Shown in pieces: positions 31,570 through 64,000 of a stretch of DNA of 64,000 bases. The stretch spans positions 310,001 through 374,000 of the forward strand of contig JACPUR010000001.1 of the NCBI GenBank assembly GCA_016192135.1. Direction: 5' to 3'. Origin of the DNA: Candidatus Tectomicrobia bacterium. Lineage in GTDB: Bacteria; UBA8248. The translations under genes were made by a program, and so were the position numbers. A model generated the notes under the pieces. That model was not told the DNA's origin, did no database searches, and was given only the letters and a program-made list of their open reading frames with translations. The stretch's first letter is position 1. Each line of letters starts with the position of its first letter.

Positions 31570-31577
31570 GAAGGGCC

Positions 31578-38049: not shown

Positions 38050-38058
38050 GAGGCATCC

Positions 38059-39530: not shown

Positions 39531-39537
39531 GGAATAT

Positions 39538-41967: not shown

Positions 41968-41979
41968 GGATAAGTCTTC

Positions 41980-44312: not shown

Positions 44313-45525
44313 GAATCGGCTTCGCTGGACGCTCATGTTCATCATTCTTCTTGCTTCCGTTCCTTCCGCCTCCCTTGCCGCCGGCCCCGCCGCCGTCTTG
44401 CCCGACAACCCTGTCGGCGGAAGCATGGTATTCGTCGAAAAGAGGTGCATCCTCTGCCATTCGATACAGGGATATGGGGGGACGAGGGGACCGGACCTCG
44501 GGCGGCTCCAGCTCAGCGGGGGCTTCCTGGCGATGGCGGGCATCATGTGGAACCACGCGCCGAAGATGATCTCCGCCTTGGCCCAGGAGAACATGTCGTT
44601 CCCGCAGTTCTCGACCTTGGAGATGAGCCAACTCGTCGCTTTTCTCTACACGCTGAACTATCTCGATCCCCCCGGGGATGCGCGCGAGGGAGAGGAGGCC
44701 TTCGCCGCGAAGCGGTGCGTTTCCTGCCACAGCGTGGGCGGGGCGGGCGGAAAGGTGGGTCCCGCCCTCGACCAGTACGGGCGTTTCGCTTCGCCTGTCT
44801 TTGTGGCCACGGCGCTTTGGAACAAGGGGATCCCGATGTCGGAGGCGATGGAGCGGGAGCGCATCCTCCGGCCCACGCTCAGCGGCCGGGACGTGCGCAA
44901 TATCGTGGAATTCATCCAGGCCCGTTCCCGCATATTTCCCGCTCCAGAGGTGCTGTTGCCGGTGTTCGTCCGCCCGGGAAACCCGCGCGAAGGAGCCTCG
45001 CTGTTCGTATCGAAGCAGTGCGTGAACTGCCATGCGGCCGACGAGATGAAGCCGGGGATTGGCCCCGCCTTGGCGGCGCGCAAGCTCAAGGTGAGCCTCT
45101 CGACCATCGCGGGCCGGATGTGGAATCACAGTCCGGAGATGTGGGCGGTCTGGAAGAAAAAGGGGATGTCTCCCATATCGTTCACGGTGGATGAGATGGC
45201 CGACGTGACCGCGTTCCTCTATTTCCTGCAATTCCAATCCCCCCAGGGAGATCCGGCCAGGGGCGCCGCTGTTTTCGCCGAGCAGGGGTGCGCGGGATGC
45301 CATAGCGCGGAGGGAAGCCGGAAGCCCATGGCGCCGGACCTGCGCGCCAAGGGGCCATGGGCGAGCGACATCGATCTCGCCCGGGAGATGTGGAACCATG
45401 CGGGCAACATGTATGGCACCCTCCTCGGCTCCGCGCGCGAGTGGCCGAAGCTCACCGAGCGGCATGTGGCCGATCTCTTGGCCTACGTCCGTTCGATTGG
45501 GGGGACACATAGGGCGAAGAAATAA
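44302..45525 (+). CDS. Exported tetrahaem cytochrome c with repeated domains
   Basis: The protein is 407 aa from ATG 44302, seven codons inside the longest frame, chosen for its AAAGGAGG. A signal peptide ends near residue 27. CxxCH sites are at 49-53, 139-143, 240-244 and 330-334. After three of the sites comes MWNHAPKM, MWNHSPEM or MWNHAGNM; the second domain has ALWNKGIPM in that place. Each unit of ~90 residues is thus a repeat of one class I-like domain, with Met or His of this motif as likely axial ligand. It probably accepts electrons from the pentahaem subunit. Confidence 0.87.
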   Translation: MNAKNRLRWTLMFIILLASVPSASLAAGPAAVLPDNPVGGSMVFVEKRCILCHSIQGYGGTRGPDLGRLQLSGGFLAMAGIMWNHAPKMISALAQENMSFPQFSTLEMSQLVAFLYTLNYLDPPGDAREGEEAFAAKRCVSCHSVGGAGGKVGPALDQYGRFASPVFVATALWNKGIPMSEAMERERILRPTLSGRDVRNIVEFIQARSRIFPAPEVLLPVFVRPGNPREGASLFVSKQCVNCHAADEMKPGIGPALAARKLKVSLSTIAGRMWNHSPEMWAVWKKKGMSPISFTVDEMADVTAFLYFLQFQSPQGDPARGAAVFAEQGCAGCHSAEGSRKPMAPDLRAKGPWASDIDLAREMWNHAGNMYGTLLGSAREWPKLTERHVADLLAYVRSIGGTHRAKK

Positions 45526-47547: not shown

Positions 47548-48870
47548 TCAATGCGAAGAATGCCCCGCGTCCCCGCCTGATGGCGCGGCCCGCAGGCTCT
47601 CCGCCCGCAGGAAGAAGCTTCCCTCGGTCACCACGGACTCCCCGGGAACGAGCCCTTTGAGGACGGCGTAGAAGTCCCCCATCAGCGGGCCGAGCTGGAC
47701 CATGCGCTGAATGAATTTGCCCTCGTCGTCCTTGGCGGGAATGTACACCACCTGCCGCTCCCCGATGGTCTGGACGGCGGCCCGGGAAACGGTCAGCACC
47801 TTTTTCCCGTCCGGCGTAGCGAAGGAGACCGTCATGTACATGCCGAGCCGCAGCCGGCCGCCGGGGTTCGGGACCTCCAGGCGGACCTTCGCCGTCCGCG
47901 TCTGCGGGTCCACCCGCGGGTCGATGTAGGTGACGCGTCCCCGGATGGAAAGGCCGGGATAGGCCGGGGAGGTCAGGCTGGCATCCGACCCGACCGCCAC
48001 CGCCTCGAAGTCCCTCTCGTAAATATCGGCCACCACCCACACATCCGAGAGATCCGTCACCGTGAAGAGCTCCTGACCCATCCCCACCACTTGGCCCAAG
48101 TTCGCCGTACGGTTGATGATCACGCCGTCGATGGGGGCCGGGACCGTCACGTGCGAGACGATCTGGCTGGGACTCTTGAGGCCCTCGACGTGGGCGCGGC
48201 TCAATCCCAGGATGAAGAGGCGTTGCCGCGCCGCCTCGATCTCGGTGACGCGGCTCTCGCGGACGGCCGTGATTTCCTCGAATTCTTGACGGCTGGCCGC
48301 CCCAATCTCGACCAACTGCTTCACCCGCTGGAGCTTACGTTTGTCGGCCTCCGCCATGGCGGTCAGGGAGAGGTATTTCGCCTGGGTCTCCGCCAGGTCG
48401 TTGCTGAACAGGGTCGCCAGGGGCTCCCCCCGCCTGACGGGCTTCCCGAGCTCCACGTGCACCTTGATCACGATTCCGCCCACGATGGGGACGACCTTGA
48501 CCTCCTTGTAGCTGTTGGGCGTCACGACCCCAGGCACCCGCACGTCGCTCTTGGATTCGACGGCCCGTACCTGGGCCGTCTTGATGCCGGCCTTCGAGAC
48601 GGACTCGGCGGTCAGCGTGACCTCGGCCTCCGCCGGGACCTGTGCCTCGGCGGGAGGGCCGGGCGGGGCGGGGGCCCCGGAGGTGCCGGCGGGCGCCTGC
48701 ACGACGGAGGGAGTGCGGGCCAGGCCGTCAGTCCCCCTTCCATACGAGAAGAGACTTGCGATCAATGCTCCCGCCGCGATCAGGGCGGCTCCGCGAAGAA
48801 CTCTCATCCATCTTCCCGCGCGGCTGCGCGGCGAACGGGACTCCCCATTCCGTCCGAAGTTCCCAGGCAT
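47548..48870 (-). CDS. RND efflux periplasmic adaptor (CusB/CzcB-like)
   Basis: The protein is 440 aa from ATG 48870. A membrane or lipoprotein-like leader, helix about 25-45, is followed by a Pro/Ala-rich linker. The adaptor body has beta-barrel and lipoyl parts (VVPIVGGIVIKVHVELGKPV; VPAPIDGVIINRTANLGQVV), an alpha hairpin (ADKRKLQRVKQLVEIGAASRQE) and WVVADIYERDFEAV, the CusB-type signature. It links the inner-membrane pump to the outer-membrane channel. The C-terminus is His/Ser-rich (GHSSH) and might hold metal. Confidence 0.88.
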   Translation of the reverse strand: MPGNFGRNGESRSPRSRAGRWMRVLRGAALIAAGALIASLFSYGRGTDGLARTPSVVQAPAGTSGAPAPPGPPAEAQVPAEAEVTLTAESVSKAGIKTAQVRAVESKSDVRVPGVVTPNSYKEVKVVPIVGGIVIKVHVELGKPVRRGEPLATLFSNDLAETQAKYLSLTAMAEADKRKLQRVKQLVEIGAASRQEFEEITAVRESRVTEIEAARQRLFILGLSRAHVEGLKSPSQIVSHVTVPAPIDGVIINRTANLGQVVGMGQELFTVTDLSDVWVVADIYERDFEAVAVGSDASLTSPAYPGLSIRGRVTYIDPRVDPQTRTAKVRLEVPNPGGRLRLGMYMTVSFATPDGKKVLTVSRAAVQTIGERQVVYIPAKDDEGKFIQRMVQLGPLMGDFYAVLKGLVPGESVVTEGSFFLRAESLRAAPSGGDAGHSSH

Positions 48871-48883
48871 CTCGTCTCTCCTG

Positions 48884-50176
48884 TCAACGGGCTGCGCCCG
48901 CGTGGGCGCGCTCGATTTCGGTGGCGGCGTCGAAAATCTGCTTCAGGGCCTCCGTGAGGCCCATCTCGACCTCGATGTATCTTCTCTGCTCGGCGATGGC
49001 GTCGAGCAGCGACGTCCGTCCCAGCTCGTATGTCTTCCACACGACGTCCAGGTTGCGGCGCGCGATTTCCCAAACGCCCCCTTGGTAGATCTCCAGCGAG
49101 CGCTTGGCGGCCTCGTACTGGGCCAGCGAGGCGGCCACCTCCTGGCGGGCGGTGAGCCGGGCGTATGCGAGCCGGCGCTCGGCGGACTTCGCCTCGGCCA
49201 TCGCCGCGGCGATGTTGCCCTGGTTCTGGTTCCGGAAGGGGAGCATGATCGTGAGGCCCACGCCCACGAAATGGAACGTGTCCTCGATGTCCCTCATGGC
49301 GCCGGCTTCGGTCAGCCCCATGAGGTTGAAGCCCGACTTCATCCGCTGATAGCCCACATTGAAGCTCGCGTCCCACTTTCCTTCGGCCTTCTCCTTCTCG
49401 ATCTTGGCCCGGGCCAGCTCCGTCTCCGTCCGGGCGAGGGCCACGTCCGGCCGCGCCTCGATTTCCGCATTCGGGACTTCCTTGCGCTCCAGGGCGGGGG
49501 GGAGATTGGACAAGGAGCCGTTGAGCGCGAGAGGCGACTCGGGAGCCATGCCGGCCAGCGTCTTGAGCTGCAGGGTCGCGATCTCTACGCGGCTCCGGAG
49601 AATGCGACGGCTCGCCTCCAGGCGGTTGACCTCGACCTGGAGCAGGCTCTCCTCGAGCGAGGGCGCGGCGCCCTTGCGCACCCGTTCGCCGAGGACCCCC
49701 TGGGCGCGCCGGTTCGCCTGCAGGAGCTCCTCCGTGAAGCGGAGATTCCGCCGGGCGGCCAGCACCTCGCCGGCCTTCATCCGGACCTCGGCCCGCATCT
49801 TCCGTTCTTTGTCGCTGAGCTGCTTCCGTTTCATCTCGGCCTCCCGCTCGGCGACCCCGACCCGGCCCTCCAGGCGGCCGTTCAAATCCAACGGAATCGT
49901 CACCCCGACCCCGACATTGTTGTCCGGGCTGTAGACGCTCTTTTGCCCGCTGAATTCGAGCATCGGGTTGGGACGGAGCCCCGCCTGCCGGAGCCGCCCT
50001 CCCGCGGCTTCCACCTCGGCGCGCATGGCCTGGATCTCCGGATTTTGCGCGAGGGTTTGGGTCACCAGCCCTTCTACGGTGAATTCGCTCTTGCCCTCCA
50101 GCGGCTGCGCGCCGGGCGCTCCCGCGCCCATGAAGGTCCATCCGAGGAATATCGAGACGAAGAGGAGCTTCCGCAT
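48884..50176 (-). CDS. TolC-family outer-membrane channel (CusC-like)
   Basis: The protein is 430 aa from ATG 50176 with a signal peptide at about 1-23. Two OEP repeats with long alternating helices are present: LVTQTLAQNPEIQAMRAEVE and AGLRPNPMLEFSG, then the second-repeat RPDVALARTETELARAKIEKE. This is the pattern of CusC/CzcC-type channels. It would form a trimer that opens the efflux path through the outer membrane. There is a 13-bp gap to the adaptor gene and 13 bp to the FixH-like gene. Confidence 0.88.
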   Translation of the reverse strand: MRKLLFVSIFLGWTFMGAGAPGAQPLEGKSEFTVEGLVTQTLAQNPEIQAMRAEVEAAGGRLRQAGLRPNPMLEFSGQKSVYSPDNNVGVGVTIPLDLNGRLEGRVGVAEREAEMKRKQLSDKERKMRAEVRMKAGEVLAARRNLRFTEELLQANRRAQGVLGERVRKGAAPSLEESLLQVEVNRLEASRRILRSRVEIATLQLKTLAGMAPESPLALNGSLSNLPPALERKEVPNAEIEARPDVALARTETELARAKIEKEKAEGKWDASFNVGYQRMKSGFNLMGLTEAGAMRDIEDTFHFVGVGLTIMLPFRNQNQGNIAAAMAEAKSAERRLAYARLTARQEVAASLAQYEAAKRSLEIYQGGVWEIARRNLDVVWKTYELGRTSLLDAIAEQRRYIEVEMGLTEALKQIFDAATEIERAHAGAAR

Positions 50177-50189
50177 CGCAGCCGCCCGC

Positions 50190-50615
50190 CTACCGGACCG
50201 GGACGGAGAGGCGCGCGGAGCCTTTCCCGGCGGGCCCGTCCCACGTGATGGTCACCTGCCGCGTGCCGGAATCGGGGAAGCTGATGGTTCCGAGATACTG
50301 TCCCGGTGCTTTGCCCGGCGTCAGGGAGGCCCCGGCGATCATGGGAGCCATCCCCGGCATCGCCATGCTCGTGCTGAGCGTGACCTTGCCCGCGTCGATG
50401 GGCTTCTGGTTCGCGGAGGACTTGAACTCCAGGATGAATGAGTTCTTCCCCTGCTTCCACTGGCCGGACTCGCTGAGAAGGGCGATGGCGACGTCTTTCG
50501 TCTTGTGGGAGCGGATGGGTTTGAGCTCCGCCCCCGAGGCCGCGCCTCCGGCGAGGGACACGGACAGAAAGAGAATTCCGGCGGCGATCCAGAGCGGGGA
50601 GCGGTTCTTAGGCAT
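50190..50615 (-). CDS. Exported FixH/YtkA-like protein
   Basis: The protein is 141 aa from ATG 50615 behind AAAGGAG. A signal peptide ends near residue 28. The rest is an immunoglobulin-like domain of the FixH/YtkA kind: LLSESGQWKQGKNSFILEFK, DAGKVTLSTSMAMPGMAPM, GQYLGTISFPDSGTRQVTIT. The Met cluster (MAMPGMAPM) could bind Cu(I) or Ag(I). It sits between cusA and cusC, where other bacteria have CusF-like metallochaperones. A chaperone role is inferred from place and Met content. Confidence 0.8.
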   Translation of the reverse strand: MPKNRSPLWIAAGILFLSVSLAGGAASGAELKPIRSHKTKDVAIALLSESGQWKQGKNSFILEFKSSANQKPIDAGKVTLSTSMAMPGMAPMIAGASLTPGKAPGQYLGTISFPDSGTRQVTITWDGPAGKGSARLSVPVR

Positions 50616-50662
50616 CGTGTTTCTCCTTTGAGTTGTGCGCCTGGCGGCCAGGCGAATCGAAG

Positions 50663-53600
50663 CTAGACAACGGCATCCTGCGACTGCTCCGCGCGCGCCT
50701 CCTCGTGCCGCAGCTCGCGGCTCCTGAGCCAATAGAAGATGACGGGCGTGACGATGAGCACGTGGGCCAGGGAGCTCACCATGCCGCCCAGGACGGGGGT
50801 GGCCAAGGGCTTCATTATCTCGGCGCCCGTCGAGGTGCTCCACATGATGGGCAGGAGGCTCGCCACGATGGTGGAGACGGTCATGACCTTCGGCCTCAGG
50901 CGAAGCAGTGCCCCTTCGATGACCGCCTCCAGAAGGGTCTGGGGGGTGAGGCGGCCGCCCATCTCCTCCCGCTTCCGCTCCACGGCCTCCTCCAAGTAGA
51001 TCACCATCACGACCGCCGTCTGGACGGCCGTTCCGAACAGCGCGATGAAGCCGACCCAGACGGCCACCGAGAAGTTGTAGCCAAGGGCGTAAAGGAGGAA
51101 GACCCCCCCGACGAGGCTGAAGGGCACCATCAGGAGCACATGGGCCGCCTCGAGGAAGGAGCGGTAGGTCAGGTAGAGGAGCACATAGATCACCAGCAGG
51201 ACGACGGGCAGCACAATCTGGATGCGCTCCTTCGCCCGGATCTCGTTCTCGTACTGGCCGCTCCACTGGAAATAGTACCCTTGCGGCAGATTGACCGCCC
51301 GCGCGACGACCGGCCGGGCCTCGTCCACAAAGCTCCCGACGTCCCGCCCCCGCACATTGAGGAGCACGGCCACCACGAGCAGTCCGTTCTCGCTGGAGAT
51401 CATGGAGGGGCCGGCGACACTGCGGATTTCGGCGAGCTGGGCGAGGGGAATTTGCGTGCCGTTGGGGGCGGAGACGAGGACGCTGCCGAGCGCGTGCGGC
51501 GTCGCCCGGAATTGGGGGGCGTAGCGGACGCGCACGGGGAAGCGCTGCCGTCCCTCGATGGTCAGGGTCAGGTTGTTCTCCCCGATCGCCGTCTCCACGA
51601 CATCCTGGATGGCGCCGATCGTGATCCCGTAGCGGGCCGCCGCCACCCGGTTCACGCGCACGTCCAGATAGGGCGCCCCGGTGACCTGCTCCGGATACAC
51701 GTCGGCCGCGCCGGGAATCTTCCTGAGGACGTCGGCCACCGCCCTCGCCCTCCCCTCCAGGGTCTTGAGGTCGCTTCCGAATATCTTCAGGCCCACCTCG
51801 GAGCGGATTCCCGTCGAAAGCATGTTGATCCGGTTGATGATGGGCTGGGTCCAGATGTTCGAGACGCCGGGAAGGGTCGTCGCCTCGTCCATCTCGCCGA
51901 TGAGCTTCTCCCGTGTCATCCCCGGCCGCCATTGGGACTCCGGCTTGAGGCTGATGATGGTCTCGGTCATGTTGACGGGGGAAGGATCGGTCGAGGTATC
52001 CGCACGCGAAACCTTCGCCACGACCGAGGCGACCTCCGGGAACTTCTGGATGGCTGCATTTTGCTTCTTGACGATTTCGGTGGCCTGGGGAAGCGAGACG
52101 GCGGGATCGGTGACGGGCATGAACAGCAAGTCCCCCTCGTTCAGGGGAGGCATGAACTCCTTTCCGATTCGGGGGAAGAGCGCCGCCGCGGCGATGATGA
52201 GCAGGAAGGCCGCGGCGATCGTCAGGACGCCGTGCCTCAGGGACCAGTTCAGGATCGGCCGGTAGAGCGCCATGAGAAACCGCATCACGATGTTGTCCTC
52301 CTCTCCCCGGATACTGCCCCCGATCAGCAGGCTGCACAGAACCGGCACAAGGGTGACGGAGAGGATGGTCGCGCCCGTCATCGCCAAGGTTTTCGTATAC
52401 GCCAGGGGATGGAAGAGCTTTCCCTCCTGGCCGGTGAGGGCGAAGACCGGCACAAAGGCGAGGATGATGATCACCATCGCGAAAAAGATGGGCCGGCCGA
52501 CGAGCCGGGTGGATTCCAGGACCGTCTCGAAAACCCGGCGGCGATCCTTCGGGTCCACGCCCCGCTTCTCCATGAAACGGTAGGCGTTCTCTGTGACGAC
52601 GATGCCCGCGTCCACCAGAACGCCGATGGCGATGGCGATGCCCGCGAGCGACATGATGTTCGAGCTGATCCCGAAATAGCGCATGAAGAGGAAGGAGATC
52701 AGCACGGCGAGCGGAATCGGTATCGTCACGATGAAGATGGAGCGGATGTTCATCAGGAAAACGATGTTGATCAGGGTGACGACGGCGGCCTCCTCGAGGA
52801 GCGTCCACTTGAGCGTGTCGACCGAGCGCTGGATCAGCGCGGATCGATCGTAGAACGGGACGATTTTCACGCCCGCCGGGAGGCCCGCCTCTAGGTCCTT
52901 GATCTTCTCCTTGACGCGCGCGATCACGTCGATGGTGCTCACCCCGTAGCGGGCCACGACGACGCCCCCCACCGCCTCCTCGGTGCCCTTGACGAGGGAG
53001 CTGACCCGGAAGGCGTTCCCGATCTTCACCTCCGCCACCTGGCGGACGAAGATGGGCACTCCGTTTTCCGAGCCGACGACGATCTCTTCGATGTCCTTCA
53101 CGCTCTCGATCAGGCCGAGCCCGCGGACCACGGACCACGTGCCCGCCGCCTCGACGACGTTTCCGCCCACGTTCCGGTTGCTCCGCATGACGGCGTCCAC
53201 CACCATCGAGAGCGGAATGCGGAACGTCCGCAAGCGGTTCGGGTCGACGTCGATCTGGTATTGCTGGATTTCCCCCCCGATGCTGGCCACCTCGGCCACG
53301 CCGGGCACGGCGTTGATCTGATAGCGGATGAACCAGTCCTGCAGGGAGCGCAGGTCGCGCAGGGAGCGGCCTTTTCCCTCCACCGTGTACCAGAAGACGT
53401 GCCCCACCCCGGTCGCGTCCGGGCCGAGGACCGGGACGACGCCCTGCGGGAGGTTCTTGGAAACCAGGTTGAGGCGCTCGAGGACCCGCGTGCGCGCGAA
53501 GTAAAGATCCACGGAGTCCTCGAAAATCACGTAAATCATCGAGAAGCCGAACGCCGAGGAGGAGCGCACGACGCGCACGCCGGGGAGGCCCTGCAGGCTC

Positions 53601-53812
53601 ACCGTGAGGGGATAGGTGATCTGGTCTTCGACTTCCTGAGGGGACCGCCCCGTCCAGTCAGTGAAGACGATGACCTGGTTGTCGGATAGATCGGGGATGG
53701 CGTCTATCGGCGTCGTCCGGAGGGCCCAGTATCCCCATCCCCCGATGAGGACGAAGAGGCCGATGACCAGAAAGCGGTTCCGCAATGAGACTTCAATGAG
53801 CCAGTTGATCAT
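50663..53812 (-). CDS. cusA: Heavy-metal RND efflux pump (CusA/CzcA family)
   Basis: The protein is 1,049 aa, the usual size. It has 12 TM helices in two halves with large periplasmic loops. Typical stretches are [59 protein letters not shown] (TM4 with the proton-relay Asp) and [14 protein letters not shown]. The [11 protein letters not shown] version of TM4 suits the CusA (monovalent Cu/Ag) side of the HME family more than CzcA, but this is not decisive. It exports metal from periplasm or cytosol through CusBC-like partners encoded downstream. Confidence 0.92.
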
Positions 53813-54289: not shown

Positions 54290-54643
54290 CTACGCCTGGA
54301 GGAGGAGGGACTTCGGAACGGGATCGGGGATTTGAGGAAGCGCCATCACCGGATTCTGGCTTGGGCGCGGCGCATAGGCTGCATAGGAATCGCGGAACTG
54401 CAGGGATTCGCCGGGGGAGGGAAACAGCATGCATATCCCGAGGGAGCATAGCTTTCCGGTGGTTTCGTGCATCGTGTTGGCGTCGTGTCCGGACGGGTGG
54501 GGCGTGCCCGCGTCATGGACCTCGGAGGAGGCCATGGCGCACATGGGCCGGCCCCCCGCGGCCATGTGAGAGGCCAGCGCGAACGGGCTCCAGAAAATCC
54601 AGAACGCCAGCAGCACAATCGCCGTTACGGTTCGCGTATACAT
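54290..54643 (-). CDS. Exported His/Met/Cys-rich protein of the efflux operon
   Basis: The protein is 117 aa from ATG 54643 with a signal peptide at about 1-25 (cleavage near ALA-SH). The mature part has HMAAGGRPMCAM, several His in SSEVHDAGTPHPSGHDANTM, and CSLGIC. The mix of His, Met and Cys is what periplasmic copper- or silver-binding proteins show. It is first in the minus-strand efflux gene group, about 270 bp upstream of the 47-aa gene. A TTGACG-N16-TACATT element (54652-54679 on this strand) lies so close to the ATG that the message would be nearly leaderless. I know no family match. Confidence 0.6.
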   Translation of the reverse strand: MYTRTVTAIVLLAFWIFWSPFALASHMAAGGRPMCAMASSEVHDAGTPHPSGHDANTMHETTGKLCSLGICMLFPSPGESLQFRDSYAAYAPRPSQNPVMALPQIPDPVPKSLLLQA

Positions 54644-55496: not shown

Positions 55497-55544
55497 TGTC
55501 ATTCCTAAGCCAGGGCAAATCAATTGGCTAATGCGGGGGGCGGA

Positions 55545-57404
55545 ATGGTTGTCCGGTCATTGAAAGCGAAACTTTTCGTGGCCGTGGTTCTCCTGGGGGT
55601 ATTGCCATTTTCTTTGAGCGTGGTGGTGGAGGCCTATCTGGCCCATCGGAGGCTCATTGCCGAGACGAGGGAGAGGCTGGCGACGGCTCCTCTGCCGGTT
55701 CTCCGGCGGATGGAGATTCTCCTCTTCGCCCGCTGGAATGATGTGCACCTCCTTTCCCATATGCCGCTCTTTCAGGATTCGGAAGGTGTGGGATATCAAG
55801 CCGCGATTCTGCGGCGCGCGGCGGATCTCCATCAGCCCGATGCCTGGCTGGCGCTGGCCAACGAGAGGGGGCGCATTCTCGCTTCCAGCGATGAAAAATT
55901 TATGGACACTGATGCAAGCGAATCCCGCTGGTTTCGAGAGGCGGGTAAGATATCCTTCCGCGATTGGAGGGAAGCCGCCCGTTCCATGTACATCAGCGAG
56001 CCTTATGTTCCCCCCTCCGGCGACGGGCGGCTGGTGATGTGTTTCAATTCCCCCCTATACGACACAGGGGGGCGCTTCCGAGGGGTGGTCCACAGTGAGA
56101 TTAAGCTGAGCGCTCTGATCCCGTTCCTCTCCAGTCTGCGCATGGGCAAGACTGGGCGGGCGCTGCTCGTCCGGGGAGACGGAAAGATATTGCTCGACGA
56201 CCAGAACCTCCTCCCTCCCATAGCGAGGACCGTCGCTGGCCATCCAGCCTTCGTCCGGGTTCTCGCGGGAGAGATGCCGGTGGTGCGCGACCGCGATCTC
56301 GATGGCGACGCCGCTCTCGTGAGCGCCTTTCCCATCAGAGGATTCGGGCAGTATCCTGGAGTCAAGTGGTTCGTTCTTGTTTCCCAGAAGGAAAGTGAGA
56401 TATTCGCCCCAGTGAGATCCATGTTTCTCATTCACTCCACGGTGGGTCTTCTGGGGGTAGGTTTCATCTTCCTAGGAGGATTTTTCCTCTTCGACCGAAA
56501 GATCTCGAAGCCGGTGGGCCAGCTCATGGAGCGCGTCCACTCCCTGGAGACGCAGGGACCCATGCCCGAGGAAGACACAATGAACTATTCCGAGGATGAG
56601 ATCGGGCGGCTGGAGCGCGCCTTCAGCGACATGGTCCACAGCCTATCGATAAAGGAAAAGGCCCGGAAGGAACTCCAGGAGCGGCTCGTCCAAAAAGAAA
56701 GGCTGGCCGCCATCGGAGAGATGGTGGCGGGGGTGGCCCATCAAATCAAAAATCCCCTAGCCACCATCAAAGTCGTGTCACAGGCGCTTAGTGAGGAATT
56801 CTCCTCTCATGCTTCTACCCAAGTCGCTCTTTCTCGGATTGACAAAGAGGTCAATCGGCTGAATCGCCTCCTGCGAGCATTCTTTGACTTTGCGGCGCCC
56901 GGGGAGCTCCAAAAGAGCCCGTGCGATCTTCGGGCACTCGTCCAGGAGGCGCTTGCCCAGGTGGAAGAGAAGCGGGTGGAAGCAGGCGTGGAGGTCAAGG
57001 AGAAATACGCTGGTCCATTTCCCCTTCTTTTGTTGGATCCGCAACAGATGCTCCAGGTGTTCATCAATCTTTTCCACAATGCGGTTCAAGCCATGCCGAC
57101 AGGCGGTGTCTTGTCCATCGACGCCGGGGTGGACGGAGAAGGGGAGGGAGCGGCGCGCGGTGTAAGGGTCAGGGTATCCGACAGCGGGATCGGGATTTCG
57201 TCTGAAAATCTGGGCAAAATCTTCCAGCCATTCTTCACCACACGGTCCTCGGGCATCGGGTTGGGGCTTTCCCTCGTTTTCAAGGTTGTCCAGAAGCACG
57301 GGGGCGAGGTGCGCGCCGAAAGTCAGCCGGGGCGGGGAACCACATTCGAGCTTTTCCTTCCCTGCGGGGAGCCGCTTGCCGGTGCAGGAGGCCAGACCCG
57401 ATGA
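55545..57404 (+). CDS. Cache-HAMP sensor histidine kinase
   Basis: The protein is 619 aa from ATG 55545 (a TTG at 55524 is the alternative). TM1 covers about 8-30 and TM2 about 295-317. The ~265-residue periplasmic part between them has the double-Cache pattern (WLALANERGRILASSDEKFM; GKTGRALLVRGDGKILLD). HAMP follows (KISKPVGQLMERV), then the H-box GEMVAGVAHQIKNPLATIK, N-box FINLFHNAVQAM, and G-boxes SDSGIGISSENL and SSGIGLGLSLVFK. The periplasmic sensor suggests detection of a small ligand. Its ATGA overlap with the regulator gene shows tight pairing. Confidence 0.92.
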   Translation: MVVRSLKAKLFVAVVLLGVLPFSLSVVVEAYLAHRRLIAETRERLATAPLPVLRRMEILLFARWNDVHLLSHMPLFQDSEGVGYQAAILRRAADLHQPDAWLALANERGRILASSDEKFMDTDASESRWFREAGKISFRDWREAARSMYISEPYVPPSGDGRLVMCFNSPLYDTGGRFRGVVHSEIKLSALIPFLSSLRMGKTGRALLVRGDGKILLDDQNLLPPIARTVAGHPAFVRVLAGEMPVVRDRDLDGDAALVSAFPIRGFGQYPGVKWFVLVSQKESEIFAPVRSMFLIHSTVGLLGVGFIFLGGFFLFDRKISKPVGQLMERVHSLETQGPMPEEDTMNYSEDEIGRLERAFSDMVHSLSIKEKARKELQERLVQKERLAAIGEMVAGVAHQIKNPLATIKVVSQALSEEFSSHASTQVALSRIDKEVNRLNRLLRAFFDFAAPGELQKSPCDLRALVQEALAQVEEKRVEAGVEVKEKYAGPFPLLLLDPQQMLQVFINLFHNAVQAMPTGGVLSIDAGVDGEGEGAARGVRVRVSDSGIGISSENLGKIFQPFFTTRSSGIGLGLSLVFKVVQKHGGEVRAESQPGRGTTFELFLPCGEPLAGAGGQTR

Positions 57405-58861
57405 AGAATTCATCTTACCCTAGCCGGCGGGAAACGATTGGCGCCACAGAGAGGGGAGAGAGCCCAGGGGCCGTCCGGTTCCCGCGCAGGGTGCTCGTTG
57501 TCGAGGACGATCAAAATTTGCGGGAGAGCCTCCGGGAAGTTCTGGAGAAGATGCAATGCAAGGTGGAGGCGGTGGAGTCGGGGGAGGAGGCTCTCGGGCA
57601 CCTTCGAAGCCAACCAGTGGAGTTGATTCTACTGGACAATCGTCTTCCAGGCAGGAGCGGTATTCAGGTTCTGCGGGAAATCCGGGAGGCGGATGAGGAC
57701 ACCTTGGTCATCATGATGACGGCGTTTCCGGAGATCCGCATGGCGGTCCAGGCCATGAAGGAAGGCGCCTATGATTATATTCATAAGCCCTTTGAGCTGG
57801 AGGAACTTCGCATCCTGGTTGAAAGGGCTTTGGAAACCACGAACTTGAGGAACGAGGTGATCCGTCTGCGTCACATGAGCGGACTCCGGGAGACGGAAAC
57901 CACGCTCTGGGGCGATTGCCCGGCCATGCGCGAGCTTCGAGACCTCATCCAGGTGGTGAGCCAGACGCCCGATACCACTGTGCTCGTCCAGGGAGAGAGC
58001 GGAACGGGAAAGGAACTCGTGGCCAATGCCATCCACACGCTTAGTGAGCGGTGCAAGGGGCCGCTGGTGAAGTTGAACTGTGGCGGAGTCCCCGAAACCC
58101 TCTTGGAATCCGAGCTCTTTGGCCATGAGAAGGGGGCCTTCACCGGCGCCGGGGCGGCCAAAAGAGGGCTCATGGAGCTCGCCGACGGGGGGACTCTTTT
58201 CCTGGATGAGCTGGATAGCATGAGCCTCGGCATCCAGCCGAAGCTGTTACGCGTCCTGGAAGAGCGTGCTTTCAGGCGCGTGGGGGGGATAAGGGAAATT
58301 CCCGTGGACGTCCGAATCGTCGCGGCGACCAACCGGGATCTGAAGGCGATGATCGCGAAAGGCGAGTTCCGGGAAGATCTTTTCTACAGGCTCAACGTGA
58401 TGACCGTCTTTCTTCCTCCCTTGCGCGAGCGGGCAGGGGACATCCTCACGCTCGCCCATCTCTTCTTGGCCCGGCATAGTTCAAAATTGAGAAAAGAAAT
58501 CACCGAGATCAGTCCCGCTGCCCAGCAGATATTGCTTCTTTACCCGTGGCCCGGGAACGTTCGAGAGCTCGCGAACGTGATGGAGCGGGCGGTGATTCTG
58601 ACGCGAGGCTCGAGCATCCTGCCGATGCACTTGCCCATTGAAATGCAGCGTATCGATGCCCTTCCGGAGGCGGCCGGCCTGCCGGCCGATCTTTCCGAGA
58701 CTGATTTATCGCTGGAGGCTTGGGAAGAAGCGCATATCCGCAGGGTCCTCGATCTCTCAGGGCGTAATAAGTCTGAGGCGGCGCGGCGGCTGGGCATCTC
58801 TCGTTCGACTCTCCTTGAAAAGCTGAAAAAAGCGCAGCTCCCAAGTTCTTTCCCTGAATGA
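57401..58861 (+). CDS. NtrC-family sigma-54-dependent response regulator (second copy)
   Basis: The protein is 486 aa and overlaps the kinase gene by four bases. A ~28-residue Ser/Arg-rich extension precedes the receiver (VLVVEDDQNLRESL; phospho-Asp in LILLDNRLPG). The AAA+ domain has GESGTGKE, GAFTGA and TLFLDELDSM, and WPGNVRELANVMERA. The Fis-like HTH is NKSEAARRLGISRSTLLEKLK. All residues for sigma-54 activation are present. The next genes, from 59202, have a good sigma-54 promoter, so this regulator is the natural activator of the selenoprotein island and perhaps of its own promoter at 55481. Confidence 0.93.
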   Translation: MKNSSYPSRRETIGATERGESPGAVRFPRRVLVVEDDQNLRESLREVLEKMQCKVEAVESGEEALGHLRSQPVELILLDNRLPGRSGIQVLREIREADEDTLVIMMTAFPEIRMAVQAMKEGAYDYIHKPFELEELRILVERALETTNLRNEVIRLRHMSGLRETETTLWGDCPAMRELRDLIQVVSQTPDTTVLVQGESGTGKELVANAIHTLSERCKGPLVKLNCGGVPETLLESELFGHEKGAFTGAGAAKRGLMELADGGTLFLDELDSMSLGIQPKLLRVLEERAFRRVGGIREIPVDVRIVAATNRDLKAMIAKGEFREDLFYRLNVMTVFLPPLRERAGDILTLAHLFLARHSSKLRKEITEISPAAQQILLLYPWPGNVRELANVMERAVILTRGSSILPMHLPIEMQRIDALPEAAGLPADLSETDLSLEAWEEAHIRRVLDLSGRNKSEAARRLGISRSTLLEKLKKAQLPSSFPE

Positions 58862-59110: not shown

Positions 59111-59126
59111 CGGCACCTCCCTTGCT
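59111..59126 (+). promoter_or_regulatory. Sigma-54 promoter of the selenoprotein/cytochrome island
   Basis: CGGCAC-CTCCC-TTGCT matches TGGCAC-N5-TTGCW at all but the first base, with GG (59112-59113) and GC (59124-59125) exactly ten bases apart. Transcription should begin near 59137, 65 bases before ATG 59202. It is the best -24/-12 element in the window and directly follows the gene of a sigma-54 activator. Confidence 0.75.
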
Positions 59127-59201
59127 CTTCCATGCGTAACTGAATCCGGGGTGCGCCCCCGTATGGATCGGCGCGGCCGGCAGGTCTGAAGAGGAGGCTC
59201 G

Positions 59202-59780
59202 ATGATGAGGTATGGAAAGGTGTGGTTTTTGGCTTTGCTGCTCGGGGGGAGCCTGCTTCTGGCGCCTCCCGGAAGTCAGGCGGGCGGCCTCGACGCGGTC
59301 AAGGTAGGGGCGCCCGCTCCCGATTTCACGCTGCGCGATTGGAGCAGCGCCCAAAAGGAGCACACCCTGAGCGAGCTCAAGGGGGAAAAAGTGGTGGTGC
59401 TCCACTTCGGGAGCTCGAGCGACTGGGGCTATGTGAAGCAGATCGGCCCCATGAACGAGCTTTACAAGAAGTTCCGCGGGAAAGGGGTCGCCTTCTACAC
59501 GATTTACGGCCCTGAAACGGACGGAAAATGGCAGCCCAAGACGGACTTCGACCGGCTCGAACGGGCGAGAGGCCTCCGTTTCGCCTACGGCCTGCAAACG
59601 CATGGGCGCATGCTCGTCCCTGTCCTGGCCGACGAACTCGACAACCGGACTTTCAAGGCCTACGGGGAGACGCCCAACAGCGTGATCATCATCGACAAGG
59701 AGGGGAAGATCGTCTCCAAGATGGCCAATGCGGATGTGAAGGCGGTCGAGAAAGCCCTCAAAAATCTGGTCAGTGAGTAG
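59202..59780 (+). CDS. Exported thioredoxin-fold (redoxin) protein without active-site Cys
   Basis: The protein is 192 aa from ATG 59202 behind GAGGAGG. Its signal peptide ends near residue 28. The fold is AhpC/TSA-redoxin like (GAPAPDFTLRDWSS; VVVLHFGSSSDWGYVKQIGP; a cis-Pro-like loop ETPNSVIIIDKEGKI). At the site where such proteins have Cys or Sec it reads GSSSDW. The neighbour's GSST-U aligns here, so Asp takes the place of Sec. It is probably not a thiol enzyme itself; it may bind a ligand or partner the Sec protein. It is the first gene after the sigma-54 promoter. Confidence 0.85.
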   Translation: MMRYGKVWFLALLLGGSLLLAPPGSQAGGLDAVKVGAPAPDFTLRDWSSAQKEHTLSELKGEKVVVLHFGSSSDWGYVKQIGPMNELYKKFRGKGVAFYTIYGPETDGKWQPKTDFDRLERARGLRFAYGLQTHGRMLVPVLADELDNRTFKAYGETPNSVIIIDKEGKIVSKMANADVKAVEKALKNLVSE

Positions 59781-59792
59781 GGAGGAGAAGGC

Positions 59793-60398
59793 ATGTCTAA
59801 GTTAACGCGGTTCGGTCTGGGCCTCGCCGCTCTCGGCCTTCTGGGCTGGGCGGTTCCGGGGCACGCGTACACCCGGGAGGAGCTGGCGAAGTACGAAGAA
59901 AAGGCCATGATGGCGCCCGAGTGGACCCTTCAAGGCATGGACGGCAAGACATATAGCCTCAAGGACTACCGGGGCAAAGAGTACGTCGCCATCCAGACCG
60001 GGAGCTCCACCTGAACGATGTACAACGCGCAGTGGTCTGCTGCGCAGAAGCTCATCAAGAAGTGGGACGGGCGCTTCAGCAAGCTCCCTCTCAAGATCTT
60101 CACCCTGTACAACCAGGAAGCCCACCTCGACTGGCAGGCGAAGACCCTCGATGAGCGCACCGAGCGCGCCAAATGGCACGGCAAGCTCTGCGCCCTGACC
60201 ACGAGCCAGGAGCAGATCGAGTCGGTCGTCGTGGACAACCCCGACAATAAGACCAACATCGCCTACGGCCAGAATCCCAACGGCATCACGATCATCGATC
60301 CGGACGGGAAGATCATTTATTACCGCGACTGGTTCCGCTACGGCGAAGTGGACAAGTTCTTCGAGGATCTCTTCAAGAAGAAGACGGCGAGTCAGTAA
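59793..60398 (+). CDS. Selenoprotein: exported deiodinase-like/redoxin-fold protein (Sec at in-frame TGA 60012)
   Basis: Read through TGA 60012-60014 as selenocysteine, this is a 201-aa protein (Sec at residue 74). Start ATG 59793 has a perfect GGAGGAGAAGG. Signal peptide about 1-25. Before the TGA lies TYSLKDYRGKEYVAIQTGSS; just after it the same frame continues MYNAQWSAAQKLIKKW and keeps the thioredoxin fold to a proper end (PNGITIIDPDGKIIYYRDW). The motif GSST-U recalls the GSxTU of iodothyronine-deiodinase-like proteins. The ATG two codons after the TGA has no ribosome site. A GGUCU-looped hairpin at 60027 supports recoding. The reaction is unknown. Confidence 0.82.
60027..60045 (+). promoter_or_regulatory. 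bSECIS element of the deiodinase-like selenoprotein
   Basis: GCGCAG (60027-60032) pairs with CTGCGC (60040-60045); the apical loop is TGGTCTG. The loop has the GGUCU core known from the E. coli fdhF SECIS. 19 bases separate the TGA from this GGUCU, against 18 in fdhF by my count. This is strong sequence-level support for selenocysteine insertion by SelB. Confidence 0.8.
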
Positions 60399-60495
60399 TT
60401 GATGTCAGAACCCTTCACCCGGGTTGTTCACGCGCCCGGGTCGAAAGGACATAAACCCGCTCTTGGCTTTCACCGAGGGCATGAGGTGCCGGGCG

Positions 60496-61536
60496 ATGAG
60501 ACAAATCTTTCGGATGTTGAGCGGTGTTTGGATATTGGCGCTGGCGCTCGGTCCCGCCGGCGCGGCGGCGGCGGAGAAAATCCCTCTCGCCTACAAGGGC
60601 CAATCGGCCGCTCTCAGCTACCAGATCGACGTGAAGTCCCACCACGTGGTTTTCGACCATGGCGGGGGCGGCTGGCGCGGAAAAACCCCCGAGCGCTCCC
60701 ATCACGAGATCCTGAACTTCGATCTCAAGTCGCAGAAGAACCCGGGCGGAGTGTTGAGCCAGATCAGCACCTTCACCGGCGTCAACGGCAAGGGTTCAAA
60801 GCTTTGGGGGAAAGAAGGCGATGTGCCCGTCCTCTGGCTCAAGCGCGAACAGATCGTCGGCAGCAGCCAGCTCATGGACATGGACGCCCTGGGGAAGGTG
60901 GTGAAGGCCACCGGCGCCCCCCATTTCATGTCGCCGGGCTATAAGCAGAAGCCCGACCCGGATGGGCCCCCGATGGACCTGTACCGGGTCCTGACGATGA
61001 TTTTCCCGCAGTTTCCGGCTAAGGCCGTCGGCGTGGGCGACTCCTGGGTGGTGCGGGACAGGTTCATCGTCGGTCCCGCCGAGGACAAGGCCGACGCGAA
61101 TATCCAGCAGCGGAGCCACAAGCTTGAGGCCAAGATCCGGCGTGACTTCCGCCTCACCTTCAAGGGATTCGAGGAGCAGAAGGGTTACCGGGTGGCGCGG
61201 ATCGCGTTCGAGGGCAAATTCGGCACCGACATCAAGGGAATCGAGCCGAACAACGGCCACTACATCACCGCCACGGGCACGGCGGCGGGGGAGTTCCTGT
61301 TCGCCCCGGAGCAGGGCCTGCTGGTCGGGGCCGACTTCAAAAGCAAGTTCGACTTCAGCTACGCCACCGACGGTGTGCTCGTCGGGTACTACCTCACGCC
61401 CAAGGAGCGGATCAGCCTCCTTCTCGAGGACCGGACGACCCCGCCCATCCCTTGGCGCGCGGAGCAGCAGGTCCGGTTGGAATTGAAAAAGCAGACGGCG
61501 GGTATCGATCCGTCCGTGAAGAGAGCGTCCCGCTAG
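60496..61536 (+). CDS. Exported protein of unknown function
   Basis: The protein is 346 aa from ATG 60496 (an in-frame ATG at 60481 is equally possible). A signal peptide ends near AAA-EK. The mature protein is beta-rich, with segments such as LSYQIDVKSHHVVFDHGGGG, GVGDSWVVRDRFIVGP, AKIRRDFRLTFKGFEEQKGY and ITATGTAAGEFLFAPEQGLL. It has no Cys in the mature part and no haem motif. The ending TAGEFL/LVGADFKSKFDFSY pattern resembles bacterial surface or periplasmic beta-sandwich proteins (DUF6263-like). Its place between redox proteins suggests a binding partner or substrate scaffold. A weak hairpin (60417-60441) precedes it. Confidence 0.75.
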   Translation: MRQIFRMLSGVWILALALGPAGAAAAEKIPLAYKGQSAALSYQIDVKSHHVVFDHGGGGWRGKTPERSHHEILNFDLKSQKNPGGVLSQISTFTGVNGKGSKLWGKEGDVPVLWLKREQIVGSSQLMDMDALGKVVKATGAPHFMSPGYKQKPDPDGPPMDLYRVLTMIFPQFPAKAVGVGDSWVVRDRFIVGPAEDKADANIQQRSHKLEAKIRRDFRLTFKGFEEQKGYRVARIAFEGKFGTDIKGIEPNNGHYITATGTAAGEFLFAPEQGLLVGADFKSKFDFSYATDGVLVGYYLTPKERISLLLEDRTTPPIPWRAEQQVRLELKKQTAGIDPSVKRASR

Positions 61537-61563
61537 GGCCTTGGCGTGAAGGGGAGAAGAAGG

Positions 61564-62085
61564 ATGTGGAGCCGGCTTGTTAGGAAAGCGGCCGCCGTCG
61601 CGGGATCGGCCCTCCTGATGGTTCTTGCGGCCACGGGAACCCAGGCGGCAGGTGTGGGCGAGCCGGCTCCCTCCTTCACCCTCCTCGACGCAGTTTCGAA
61701 GCGGGAAATCCGGCTCCACGAGTTCCGGGGACGTACCGTGGTGATGTGGGTGTGGGACACGGTTTGCCCCCTCTGCCTGGACGAAGGCAAAGCCATTGAC
61801 CAGTTTATCGCCGGGCGCCCGGACCTCGCGGGACTCCTCGTCATCGAGCGGGGCGACGAGATGGATCTCGAAATCGAGGGGCAGATCTACCAGCCCCGGA
61901 TGCATCTCCTGGTGGACAAGAAGGCGGCGGTCGAGAAGAGCTACGGCCTCACCCGGCTGCCCGTGCTTATCATCGTGGATCGGACCGGGCGAGTTCGATA
62001 CCGGGGATCGTACGACGGGAATTGCCGGCTGGCGGAGCACATTGCCCGCATCGAGGCCGCAACGGTTTTACGTGGCTGCCTGTGA
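61564..62085 (+). CDS. Exported TlpA-like thiol oxidoreductase with CPLC site
   Basis: The protein is 173 aa from ATG 61564, which has GGAGAAGAAGG in front (GTG 61546 would add six codons). A signal peptide ends near TQA-AG. The TlpA/AhpC-like domain begins GEPAPSFTLLDAVSKREI, and the redox site is MWVWDTVCPLCLDEG with CPLC. The cis-Pro loop is GLTRLPVLIIVDRTGRVRY. It is a close paralogue of the CPV-U protein at 63165 (same WxWD...CP, ERxDE and later blocks), so it serves as its Cys counterpart. It probably handles thiol-disulfide exchange in the periplasm. Confidence 0.85.
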   Translation: MWSRLVRKAAAVAGSALLMVLAATGTQAAGVGEPAPSFTLLDAVSKREIRLHEFRGRTVVMWVWDTVCPLCLDEGKAIDQFIAGRPDLAGLLVIERGDEMDLEIEGQIYQPRMHLLVDKKAAVEKSYGLTRLPVLIIVDRTGRVRYRGSYDGNCRLAEHIARIEAATVLRGCL

Positions 62086-62101
62086 CTTTCAGGAGAAGGA
62101 A

Positions 62102-62656
62102 ATGATCGTCTTGAATCGCCTCAAGGGGGCAAGTCTGGCGGGCCTCTTTCTGCTCGGGCTGACAGGTCTCGCGCTGGCGGCCTCCCCGCCGAAGTCCAAG
62201 GAGCCGCAGAAAAAGGCCGCCAAGGAGGCCGTCGCGGTACCGGGCGCGGCATCGGCGGACCCGAGGTGGAGCGAGAAGCACCGGAAATATGAAGAGAAAA
62301 ACTGGGCATTCGATATCGTGAACGGCAACATCCGCTTCTCCCACGGCAATCACAAGAACCGCGACCGGTGGTTCCGGGCCTACTTCCGGCAGGGGTACTC
62401 GTGCGGAATCTGCCACAGCACGGCCGTGCCCCAGGATGACGGAAAAGGGTATGTGAAGATGAGCAAGGGGGACCCCCTCGCGACGGTTGAGGATATCCGG
62501 GACGCGAAGGACGAGGCGTACGCGTATGGGGTATCCATGCTCACTTGCTTGGGCAACTGCCACAACGGCTTCACGGCGCCCAACAACTGCGACTGGTGCC
62601 ACCTGCCCCAGAGCAAGCCGATCAAGGAAGGGCAGAAGGAGATCAAAAAATGGTAA
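62102..62656 (+). CDS. Exported three-haem-motif cytochrome with one CX3CH site
   Basis: The protein is 184 aa from ATG 62102 behind AGGAGAAGG. A signal peptide ends near LALAA. Sites are CGICH (101-105), CLGNCH (149-154, three residues between the Cys) and CDWCH (163-167). A RFSHGNHKNR distal-His motif precedes the first, as in class III cytochromes. CX3CH is rare and may or may not take haem with the normal lyase. Overlap with the next gene (ATG inside the last codons) shows coupling. Confidence 0.85.
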   Translation: MIVLNRLKGASLAGLFLLGLTGLALAASPPKSKEPQKKAAKEAVAVPGAASADPRWSEKHRKYEEKNWAFDIVNGNIRFSHGNHKNRDRWFRAYFRQGYSCGICHSTAVPQDDGKGYVKMSKGDPLATVEDIRDAKDEAYAYGVSMLTCLGNCHNGFTAPNNCDWCHLPQSKPIKEGQKEIKKW

Positions 62657-63165
62657 GGGGGAAAACGCGCTGGTTTGCCTGGACGGGGGCCCTCCTCCTG
62701 TCGGCGTCCCTGGGCTTTATGGCATTCCAGTATCTTTTCGCCCCGGCCGGAGAGAGTGCCCCCGACCTTCGCCTCCAGAATCTCGCTGGTGAAGAGATTC
62801 GCCTCTCTCAGTTGCGGGGGAAAACGGTGGTGGTCAATTTCTGGGCCACCTGGTGCCAGCCTTGTGTTTACGAGATTCCAGAACTGGCCCGCTTCTCCGA
62901 GTCCCAGCGCGACCGGAACGTGGTCGTCCTCGGGGTGGCCATGGACAAGAACGTGGACAAGGTGCGGGACTTTGTCCAGCGGTTCAAAGTCTCCTATCCG
63001 ATCGTGATCGGAGATATCGCCACCGCCCGGCTTTGGCAGGTACGGGGGCTTCCGATGACCTTCATCATATCTCCGGCGGGGAAGGTCGATCGGGTAATAC
63101 CGGGAGGAATCACCCAGGCCGCCTTGGAGGCGGCCATCCGGCCGCGTGCGGGAGGAGCCTCCTGA
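62650..63165 (+). CDS. Membrane-anchored TlpA-like thiol-disulfide oxidoreductase (CQPC)
   Basis: The protein is 171 aa from ATG 62650, overlapping the preceding gene's stop. One N-terminal TM helix (about 9-28). The domain has APDLRLQNLAGEEIRLSQLR, the classic VVNFWATWCQPCVYEIPEL with CQPC, and GLPMTFIISPAGKVDRVIPG with cis-Pro. It resembles ResA/TlpA reductants that reduce haem-site cysteines or other periplasmic disulfides. In this island it may reduce the Sec proteins or the cytochromes before haem attachment. Stop and the next ATG share one base. Confidence 0.9.
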   Translation: MVRGKTRWFAWTGALLLSASLGFMAFQYLFAPAGESAPDLRLQNLAGEEIRLSQLRGKTVVVNFWATWCQPCVYEIPELARFSESQRDRNVVVLGVAMDKNVDKVRDFVQRFKVSYPIVIGDIATARLWQVRGLPMTFIISPAGKVDRVIPGGITQAALEAAIRPRAGGAS

Positions 63166-63797
63166 TGCATGCCCGGCGGGATTTCCGGAAATTCTTCTCG
63201 GCCCTGTGCGCGGCCCTCATGGCAGTGGCCGTGTCGCCCGCGCCCTCGCTCGCGGTGGAGCTTTGCCAGCAGGCCCCCAATTTCAAGGCGTACGAGGTGG
63301 TGCAGGAAGAGGACTTCGACTTCCACGCCTACCGGAAGGGAAGCGTGACGCTCTTCTGGATCTGGGATTGGGCCAAGGAGTGCCCCGTCTGAGGGCCGGC
63401 GGGGAAGGCCCTCGGTGAGAGGGTCCAGCGTTTCTCGAAGCGGGGGGTCAAAGGCGTCCTCCTCGTCGAACGGGCGGATGAGAAGATGGTGGCCCTCGCA
63501 GCATACGGCATCTTCGGGGACAGCGTGCCCTACGCGACGGCGGTGGATCGCGGAGGAAAGACGGCGCGCGCGTACGGGCTCGATCCCGATCGCCTTCCCG
63601 CTATCTTCATCCTCGATCGGGCGGGCCGCATCCGCTACATCGGTTTCGAGGAAGACGTGAAGGCTCTCCTCAAGCAAACTGATTCCGAAATTGACCGCGT
63701 TGCAGATGCGCTCCTGAGAGAGAAGGGGCGGGATGCGGCTGACCTCCAGGGGATAAAGGGATTCAGTCCCCGCTGCGAAACAAAAGGGAGATCGTAA
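63165..63797 (+). CDS. Selenoprotein: exported TlpA-like protein with CPV-U site (Sec at in-frame TGA 63390)
   Basis: Reading TGA 63390-63392 as selenocysteine gives a 210-aa protein with Sec at residue 76. Start ATG 63165 overlaps the previous stop by one base. Signal peptide about 1-30. The active site is FWIWDWAKECPV-U, a CxxU version of the thioredoxin CxxC. In the same frame past the TGA the fold continues: VQRFSKRGVKGVLLVERADE, ALAAYGIFGDSVPYATAVDR, RLPAIFILDRAGRIRYIGF. These blocks match the CPLC paralogue at 61564. No sensible start exists just after the TGA. A GGUGA-looped hairpin at 63407 is well placed as SECIS. Confidence 0.82.
63407..63425 (+). promoter_or_regulatory. bSECIS element of the CPV-U selenoprotein
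   Basis: GGCCCTC (63407-63413) pairs with GAGGGTC (63419-63425), including one G-U pair; loop GGTGA (63414-63418). The loop starts with GG and lies 21 bases after the TGA, within the 16-37 range described for bacterial SECIS. A competing stem, GAGGGCC with GGCCCTC (63391-63397/63407-63413), would include part of the TGA and is less suitable. Confidence 0.65.
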
Positions 63798-63798
63798 G

Positions 63799-64000
63799 AT
63801 GAAGGGCTTCCGCGGCCGGTGGGTGGCGGCAGGGGTGCTCGCCGCAGTCGCCTTCTTGCCTTTCCAAAACCCCGTCGTAGCGCACGCGGAAACCGCCTCG
63901 AAGGGCCCCGCCCTCGATGGGGAGCGGCTGATACGCGATCTCAACTGCGCGGCCTGCCACCAATTGGGAAAGGGCCTCAAAAGCTCCTTTCCCGAGAACC
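63799..64000 (+). CDS. Exported cytochrome c, N-terminal part (truncated by window edge)
   Basis: ATG 63799 one base after the previous stop, with AGGGAG upstream. 67 residues are visible: a signal peptide (about 1-30, ends AHA), then a class I cytochrome c start with CAACH at 50-54 (RLIRDLNCAACHQLGKG). The gene runs off the window. It shows the island continues to the right. Confidence 0.85.
   Translation, partial: MKGFRGRWVAAGVLAAVAFLPFQNPVVAHAETASKGPALDGERLIRDLNCAACHQLGKGLKSSFPEN

Follow-up and report, generated by a model that had tools for sequence, protein, structure and literature searches.

We examined an operon of nine plus-strand genes (P1-P9, 59202-65871) at the end of a 64,000-nucleotide stretch of DNA from Candidatus Tectomicrobia bacterium, hereafter the window [bases 310001-374000 of a 379,839-base contig in a draft genome of 3.9 Mb that is 96.8% complete]. 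P8 crosses the end of the window and P9 lies beyond it, within a further 5.8 kb that we also read; coordinates above 64000 continue the window numbering. The operon may encode a sigma-54-controlled periplasmic reduction pathway in which the selenol of P2, a deiodinase-like selenoprotein, would be re-reduced by a relay running from the CcdA-type protein P9 through P6 to P4 and P7; we judge the chances of this reading to be evenly balanced. It builds on the gene set, the promoter, the export signals, the positions of selenocysteine (Sec) and the deiodinase-type active site of P2, all of them predicted from sequence (Table 1).

A sequence-only reading of the window had described at least eight consecutive exported or membrane proteins behind one strong -24/-12 promoter and a dedicated sensor/activator pair. 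Its genes and motifs were all found at the positions it gave, and the operon is larger than claimed, with nine such genes. All nine products are predicted to be exported or membrane-located: signal-peptide-like N-terminal stretches, judged by inspection of the sequences, are present in P1-P5, P7 and P8, P6 has a membrane anchor, and P9 is an integral membrane protein. The intergenic gaps from P1 to P9 are, in order, 12, 97, 27, 16, -7, -1, 1 and 12 nt; that most of the genes overlap or lie 1-16 nt apart argues for one transcript. The next gene after P9 is on the opposite strand, and the operon therefore very probably ends with the CcdA gene. No terminator-like site above chance was found in the operon region, and no Rfam family in the operon.

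The consensus YGGCACN5TTGCW has a single exact match in the window, at 59111-59126, in the 340-bp gap between the activator gene and P1. A slightly looser -24/-12 pattern is expected by chance 0.24 times per window and about 0.001 times in the 340-bp intergenic region. The claimed sensor/activator pair holds up, a dCache kinase and a sigma-54 activator being encoded directly upstream; the -24/-12 promoter together with an enhancer-binding activator predicts, at the sequence level, a sigma-54 operon. Upstream of the promoter, no inverted repeat could be clearly made out as an activator site. The GC content at third codon positions (GC3) and the codon usage of the operon fall inside the range that neighbouring genes span (a deviation at least as large is seen in 7% of random gene sets), which neither supports nor excludes acquisition by transfer and gives no strong sign of recent import.

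P1 and P2 belong to the deiodinase family. Both exceed the PF00837 cut-off by narrow margins, and the broader AhpC/TSA and redoxin families of Pfam also match both. A profile built from P1, P2 and their relatives in the phylum [a comparison set of 18 genomes, all of one family: the source genome and 17 others] returned Dio3 and Dio2 as the top two of the whole PDB (E = 1e-15); a single-sequence search with P2 found Dio2 at E = 0.07. In a maximum-likelihood tree, P1 and P2 fall with Dio2, Dio3 and bacterial deiodinase-like proteins and are split from ResA, P4, P6 and P7 with support of 99/96. They are sisters in this tree, with modest support (81/88) and long branches, and are 34% identical. 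The proton-relay residues of Dio2 are Ser127, Thr129, Tyr157, Glu160, His162 and His182 (PMC11592359); five of the six have equivalents beside Sec74 in P2 (Ser71, Thr73, Tyr106, Glu109 and His111). The omega-loop (Dio insertion) for hormone binding is shortened to a few residues in both P1 and P2.

In P1 the Sec position is occupied by Asp, and a scan for cysteine found neither Cys nor Sec anywhere in the protein. Because it has neither residue, P1 cannot, as its sequence reads, itself be a thiol/selenol redox enzyme; by the same token it is a relative of deiodinases and not an active deiodinase-type enzyme. Since deiodinases are homodimers, as described in PMC11592359, P1 is on the simplest reading probably a structural partner of P2, and a Cys-less paralogue beside P2 would be a possible case of a selenoenzyme working with a redox-dead partner. 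Thus the two redoxin-fold proteins noted earlier (one Sec, one Asp) keep their positions and motifs and can now be placed in the deiodinase family, although P1 no longer counts as a thiol redox protein. The accompanying guess of a halogenated (or similar electrophilic) substrate has a real basis, because P1 and P2 belong to this family (PF00837).

P2 and P7 each contain one in-frame TGA, which coincides exactly with the family's catalytic residue and has homology on both sides, and the source genome carries tRNA-Sec (74.8 bits, above the family cut-off) and SelA (466 bits). On these grounds it is credible that both are Sec codons. Each is followed by a stem-loop resembling a bacterial selenocysteine insertion sequence (bSECIS); that of P7 is not the minimum free energy fold when the TGA region is left free. 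By themselves, the stem-loops lend the Sec assignment little support because, in this GC-rich DNA, 24% of control codons pass the same model (6% with a loop starting in GG/GU as in P2 and P7). The stem-loops are thus not strongly distinctive, and an ATG lies 3 nt after the TGA of P2, as might be expected if the TGA codons were real stops and P2 and P7 decayed or split genes. We consider this very improbable given the placement of the single TGA of each gene in the catalytic Sec/Cys column, the homology beyond it and the presence of tRNA-Sec and SelA; moreover, the related deiodinase-like genes to which matches were found in the phylum, two of them in the source genome, likewise carry a TGA within the matched frame.

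Sec-type deiodinase-like genes are frequent in this group: nearly every phylum genome examined has one to three of them, each with an in-frame TGA, the family being unusually expanded there. In the source genome a canonical one (GAITUPPF; L081:234-746) lies ~5 kb from the tRNA-Sec gene (G000:C28:5467-5559).

CcdA/DsbD proteins pass electrons from cytoplasmic thioredoxin on to CxxC proteins of the periplasm. P9 has both cysteines expected of such a protein, Cys23 (in SPC) and Cys148 (in TPC), and the operon thus encodes the two components of a CcdA/ResA relay, a DsbD_TM protein with two membrane cysteines (P9) and an anchored CxxC thioredoxin (P6). P4 and P7 form a Cys/Sec pair of ResA/TlpA-type redoxins. 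P4, P6 and P7 had been recognised as three TlpA-like proteins (CPLC, CQPC and CPV-U), and we likewise place them in the ResA/TlpA type. Electrons had been proposed to come from the cytochromes. Because the thiol/selenol branch has its own source, CcdA, in the operon, its electrons probably come from cytoplasmic thioredoxin instead; cytochromes are possible donors for a second step, but the selenol branch does not require them.

The main rival takes the same proteins for cytochrome c maturation. CcdA, P6 and perhaps P4 would be a dedicated branch reducing the CxxCH cysteines of P5 and P8, resembling the ResA/CcdA part of System II, with P1, P2 and P7 having separate reductants or serving thiol repair only. 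P6 is indeed ResA-like, CcdA is present, and two cytochromes with seven haem sites are encoded in the same operon. We nevertheless consider this alternative unlikely, if a serious contender: the operon has no CcsA/CcsB-type haem lyase, two extra CxxC/CxxU redoxins and two selenoproteins are left unexplained, and such helpers are absent from the annotated neighbours of the tandem-haem cytochromes at 31642-33228 and 44281-45525. Maturation and re-reduction of P2 may both be true together.

The two cytochromes claimed earlier are P5, with three haem motifs (two CxxCH and one CxxxCH in a motif scan), and P8, with four CxxCH. As a whole, P8 scores 88.9 bits, summed over four stretches, against the NCBIfam SoxX model (cut-off 61). 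In Sox systems, SoxX is accompanied by a CcdA-like SoxV and a thioredoxin, SoxW. A Sox-like oxidation could therefore be envisaged, in which the thiol/selenol carriers hold a sulfur or selenium substrate, P5 and P8 accept electrons, and CcdA and P6 keep the carriers reduced in the manner of SoxV and SoxW. We give this only a slim chance: SoxA, SoxB, SoxYZ and SoxCD were not found by Pfam or NCBIfam among the nine genes of the operon, and the tandem-haem protein at 44281-45525 also passes the SoxX model, so the match of P8 reflects generic monohaem domains.

P3 had been described as an unknown beta-rich protein. It has no family, and no relatives were found in the PDB or among 386 genomes; its beta-rich character appears only in the C-terminal half, which is strand-rich in a predicted model of very low confidence (predicted local distance difference test score, pLDDT, 36). 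That model is not usable.

The pathway that we propose would run as follows. Upon ligand sensing, the dCache kinase and the activator would switch the operon on. Cytoplasmic thioredoxin would reduce CcdA at Cys23/Cys148, CcdA would reduce the anchored ResA-type P6 (CQPC), and P6 would reduce both P4 (CPLC) and the selenoredoxin P7 (CPVU), an order that we infer. Once oxidised (selenenyl-X), the Sec of P2 would be re-reduced by P4 or P7, possibly through Cys133. The selenolate of P2, aided by the Ser/Thr/Tyr/Glu/His network, would attack a soft periplasmic electrophile in a deiodinase-like half reaction and accept the leaving atom, a halogen or else S, Se or O, in cationic form, with protonation of the product. 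The deiodinase omega-loop being shortened, P1 would shape a different substrate pocket with P2. P5 and P8 may tie the system to the respiratory chain, either draining electrons from an oxidative branch or feeding a second step. A bolder version, which we hold to be quite doubtful, is a cobalamin-free, Sec-dependent periplasmic reductive dehalogenation (or analogous C-X reduction) with a redox-dead partner, CcdA-CxxC-CxxU recycling and cytochromes that couple it to respiration.

P2 and P7 might instead defend against oxidants, with P2 (and P7) acting as periplasmic selenol peroxidases that are fed by CcdA or by cytochromes and induced by oxidant through the kinase. The AhpC/TSA and redoxin folds are compatible with this, CusA-type metal efflux genes lie near the operon, and prokaryotes are known to have Prx-like Sec proteins (PMC13188914). 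P2, however, has the deiodinase network, lacks the TxxC of peroxiredoxins and groups with deiodinases in the tree. To our knowledge, peroxidase operons normally lack multihaem cytochromes and a Cys-less paralogue, a further point against oxidant defence, and we regard it as decidedly unlikely.

Several observations weigh against a P2-centred reduction pathway. P2 lacks an equivalent of His182, the second relay histidine, and most of the substrate loop, and true iodothyronine-like substrates are therefore unlikely for it, as judged by sequence. Its predicted model is of modest confidence (pLDDT 56), with generic thioredoxin-fold proteins as best structural matches. Reading the contig past 64 kb, a check proposed by the sequence-only reading, yielded the remainder of P8 and the ninth gene, CcdA. 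None of the genes in the operon is specific to a halogenated substrate or to any other named one. No role is assigned to P3 or to the cytochromes P5 and P8, and CcdA and the ResA-type P6 could serve cytochrome maturation instead.

Absence of conservation also weakens the finding. Orthologs of P2, P3 and P5 were found in none of 386 genomes, and an ortholog of P7 in none of 290, both sets including all 17 other genomes of the phylum. P2 matched only canonical deiodinase-like proteins, ~23-29% identical over its length, P7 only generic thioredoxins (up to 36% identity over short stretches), and P5 gave one meaningless match. The neighbourhoods of 12 other deiodinase-like genes contain no homologs of P3-P5 or P7-P9; weak matches to P6 there are mostly the deiodinase-like gene itself, through generic thioredoxin similarity. 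Plasmids gave no match for P2 or P3. Wider scans of genome contigs (with P2 alone and with a P2/P1 alignment) and of viral contigs gave no relative, in searches that need near-exact 8-residue stretches and miss divergent orthologs. Sampling outside the phylum was thin, with roughly a single genome for each genus, and the only two further phyla searched with P2 were represented by 1 and 4 genomes. Orthologs may thus exist beyond the sampled genomes, given this sampling and the near-exact stretches that the scans require. Conservation of the gene set had been fixed beforehand as the test on which the proposal could fail; the result was negative in all genomes searched, and the association rests on one genome. 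The sequence-only reading is partly supported: its exported redox proteins with selenol, thiol and haem groups are upheld as products of a single sigma-54 operon, whereas electrons for the thiol/selenol branch probably do not come from the cytochromes.

Bacterial deiodinase-like selenoproteins (PF00837) are known from the Sargasso Sea and later surveys (PMC1088965, PMC13188914). P1 and P2 join them by Pfam, profile and tree, and P2 has its Sec at the same site; they differ in that P2 has GSSTUTMY in place of GAITUPPY/F, a shortened loop and no His182, and P1 has no Cys or Sec. The bacterial deiodinase-like genes sampled, unlike those here, do not adjoin homologs of P3-P5 or P7-P9. With mammalian Dio2 and Dio3, P2 shares a related thioredoxin fold and the Ser, Thr, Sec, Tyr, Glu and His network, whereas it is bacterial and exported, has a reduced thyroid hormone loop and shows only remote sequence similarity. 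The CcdA/ResA/TlpA relays of cytochrome c maturation and of SoxV/SoxW likewise combine a CcdA with two membrane cysteines and an anchored CxxC thioredoxin, to which this operon adds two redoxins (one CxxU) and the deiodinase-like proteins. SAO/Tso operons also hold several selenoprotein genes each, and Tso has a DsbD-like part (PMC13188914), but no gene here reaches any SAO/Tso NCBIfam cut-off: TsoB scores 57 and 19 bits on operon proteins against a cut-off of 805, TsoA and TsoC have no match, and P9 and P6 share only DsbD and thioredoxin domains with these systems. The composition had been said to match no described pathway, and within a limited literature search we too found no matching system. 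The component families (deiodinase-like selenoproteins, CcdA/ResA relays, tandem-haem cytochromes and multi-selenoprotein operons) are known; their combination is a new arrangement (PMC1088965, PMC13188914).

The operon brings together P2, a complete candidate reductant chain (CcdA, ResA-type, CxxC and CxxU proteins) and a regulator. As far as we know, it is not settled what reduces deiodinases physiologically or what bacterial deiodinase-like proteins do; with a candidate chain in the same operon, both questions become testable with few purified proteins.

Table 1. Coordinates of the regulatory genes, promoter, operon genes and Sec-related elements.
Feature	Position	Strand	Evidence and remarks
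Sensor histidine kinase	55524..57404	+	Pfam dCache_1, HAMP, HisKA, HATPase_c
Sigma-54 response regulator	57401..58861	+	Pfam receiver, sigma-54 AAA+, Fis helix-turn-helix; NtrC/AtoC class in NCBIfam
Putative -24/-12 (sigma-54) promoter, CGGCACCTCCCTTGCT	59111..59126	+	Exact match to YGGCACN5TTGCW
P1, exported deiodinase-family protein	59202..59780	+	PF00837, 28.2 bits (cut-off 27); GSSSD replaces GSxTU
P2, exported deiodinase-like selenoprotein	59793..60398	+	PF00837, 28.3 bits (cut-off 27); GSSTU; second redox residue Cys133
In-frame TGA, Sec74 of P2	60012..60014	+	Aligns with Sec130 of Dio2
bSECIS-like stem-loop of P2	60027..60045	+	Loop GGUCU, 19 nt after TGA; fits published bacterial SECIS model
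P3, exported protein, no family	60496..61536	+	No Cys; His-rich N-terminus; no Pfam/NCBIfam match
P4, exported redoxin	61564..62085	+	PF08534/PF00578; CPLC; sister of P7 in tree
P5, exported triheme c7-like cytochrome	62102..62656	+	PF14522 just below cut-off; CGICH, CLGNCH, CDWCH
P6, membrane-anchored ResA/TlpA-type thioredoxin	62650..63165	+	PF00578, E=6e-24; CQPC; ResA subfamily 108 bits (below cut-off 170)
P7, exported redoxin selenoprotein	63165..63797	+	PF00578, E=2e-12; CPVU aligned with CPLC of P4
In-frame TGA, Sec76 of P7	63390..63392	+	Aligns with Cys71 of P4, second Cys of CPLC
bSECIS-like stem-loop of P7	63407..63425	+	Loop GGUGA, 21 nt after TGA; fits published bacterial SECIS model
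P8, exported tetraheme cytochrome c	63799-65130	+	Four tandem monohaem domains; four CxxCH; leaves window at 64000
P9, CcdA-type membrane protein	65143-65871	+	DsbD_TM, E = 1e-17; past window end

Directly behind the operon, on the minus strand (65881-66360), a ComM/YifB-type Mg-chelatase protein is represented by its C-terminal part alone, the N-terminal part seemingly missing; the truncated gene is a possible sign of rearrangement at the operon end. The codon usage of the sensor/activator pair (55524-58861) differs from that of its neighbours by 0.387, as against 0.16 for the operon and a maximum of 0.217 among 500 random gene sets, the pair being shorter than the gene sets used in this comparison.

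Further upstream, the minus strand encodes a CusCBA/CzcA-type heavy-metal efflux system (47548-53812), and a DUF2946-like small protein is at 54290-54643. A Qrc/DsrOP-like complex occupies 39030-45525 [c7-type cytochrome, Tat-exported molybdopterin-family subunit, iron-sulfur protein, NrfD protein and tandem-haem cytochrome] and is preceded by a NarQ/NarL-like pair (36646-38730); all of these score under equivalog cut-offs, generic haem models excepted. The stretch 30898-36222 encodes a cupredoxin-like protein, a second pair of histidine kinase and sigma-54 activator, and a large tandem-haem cytochrome; tandem-haem cytochromes occur three times inside 35 kb.

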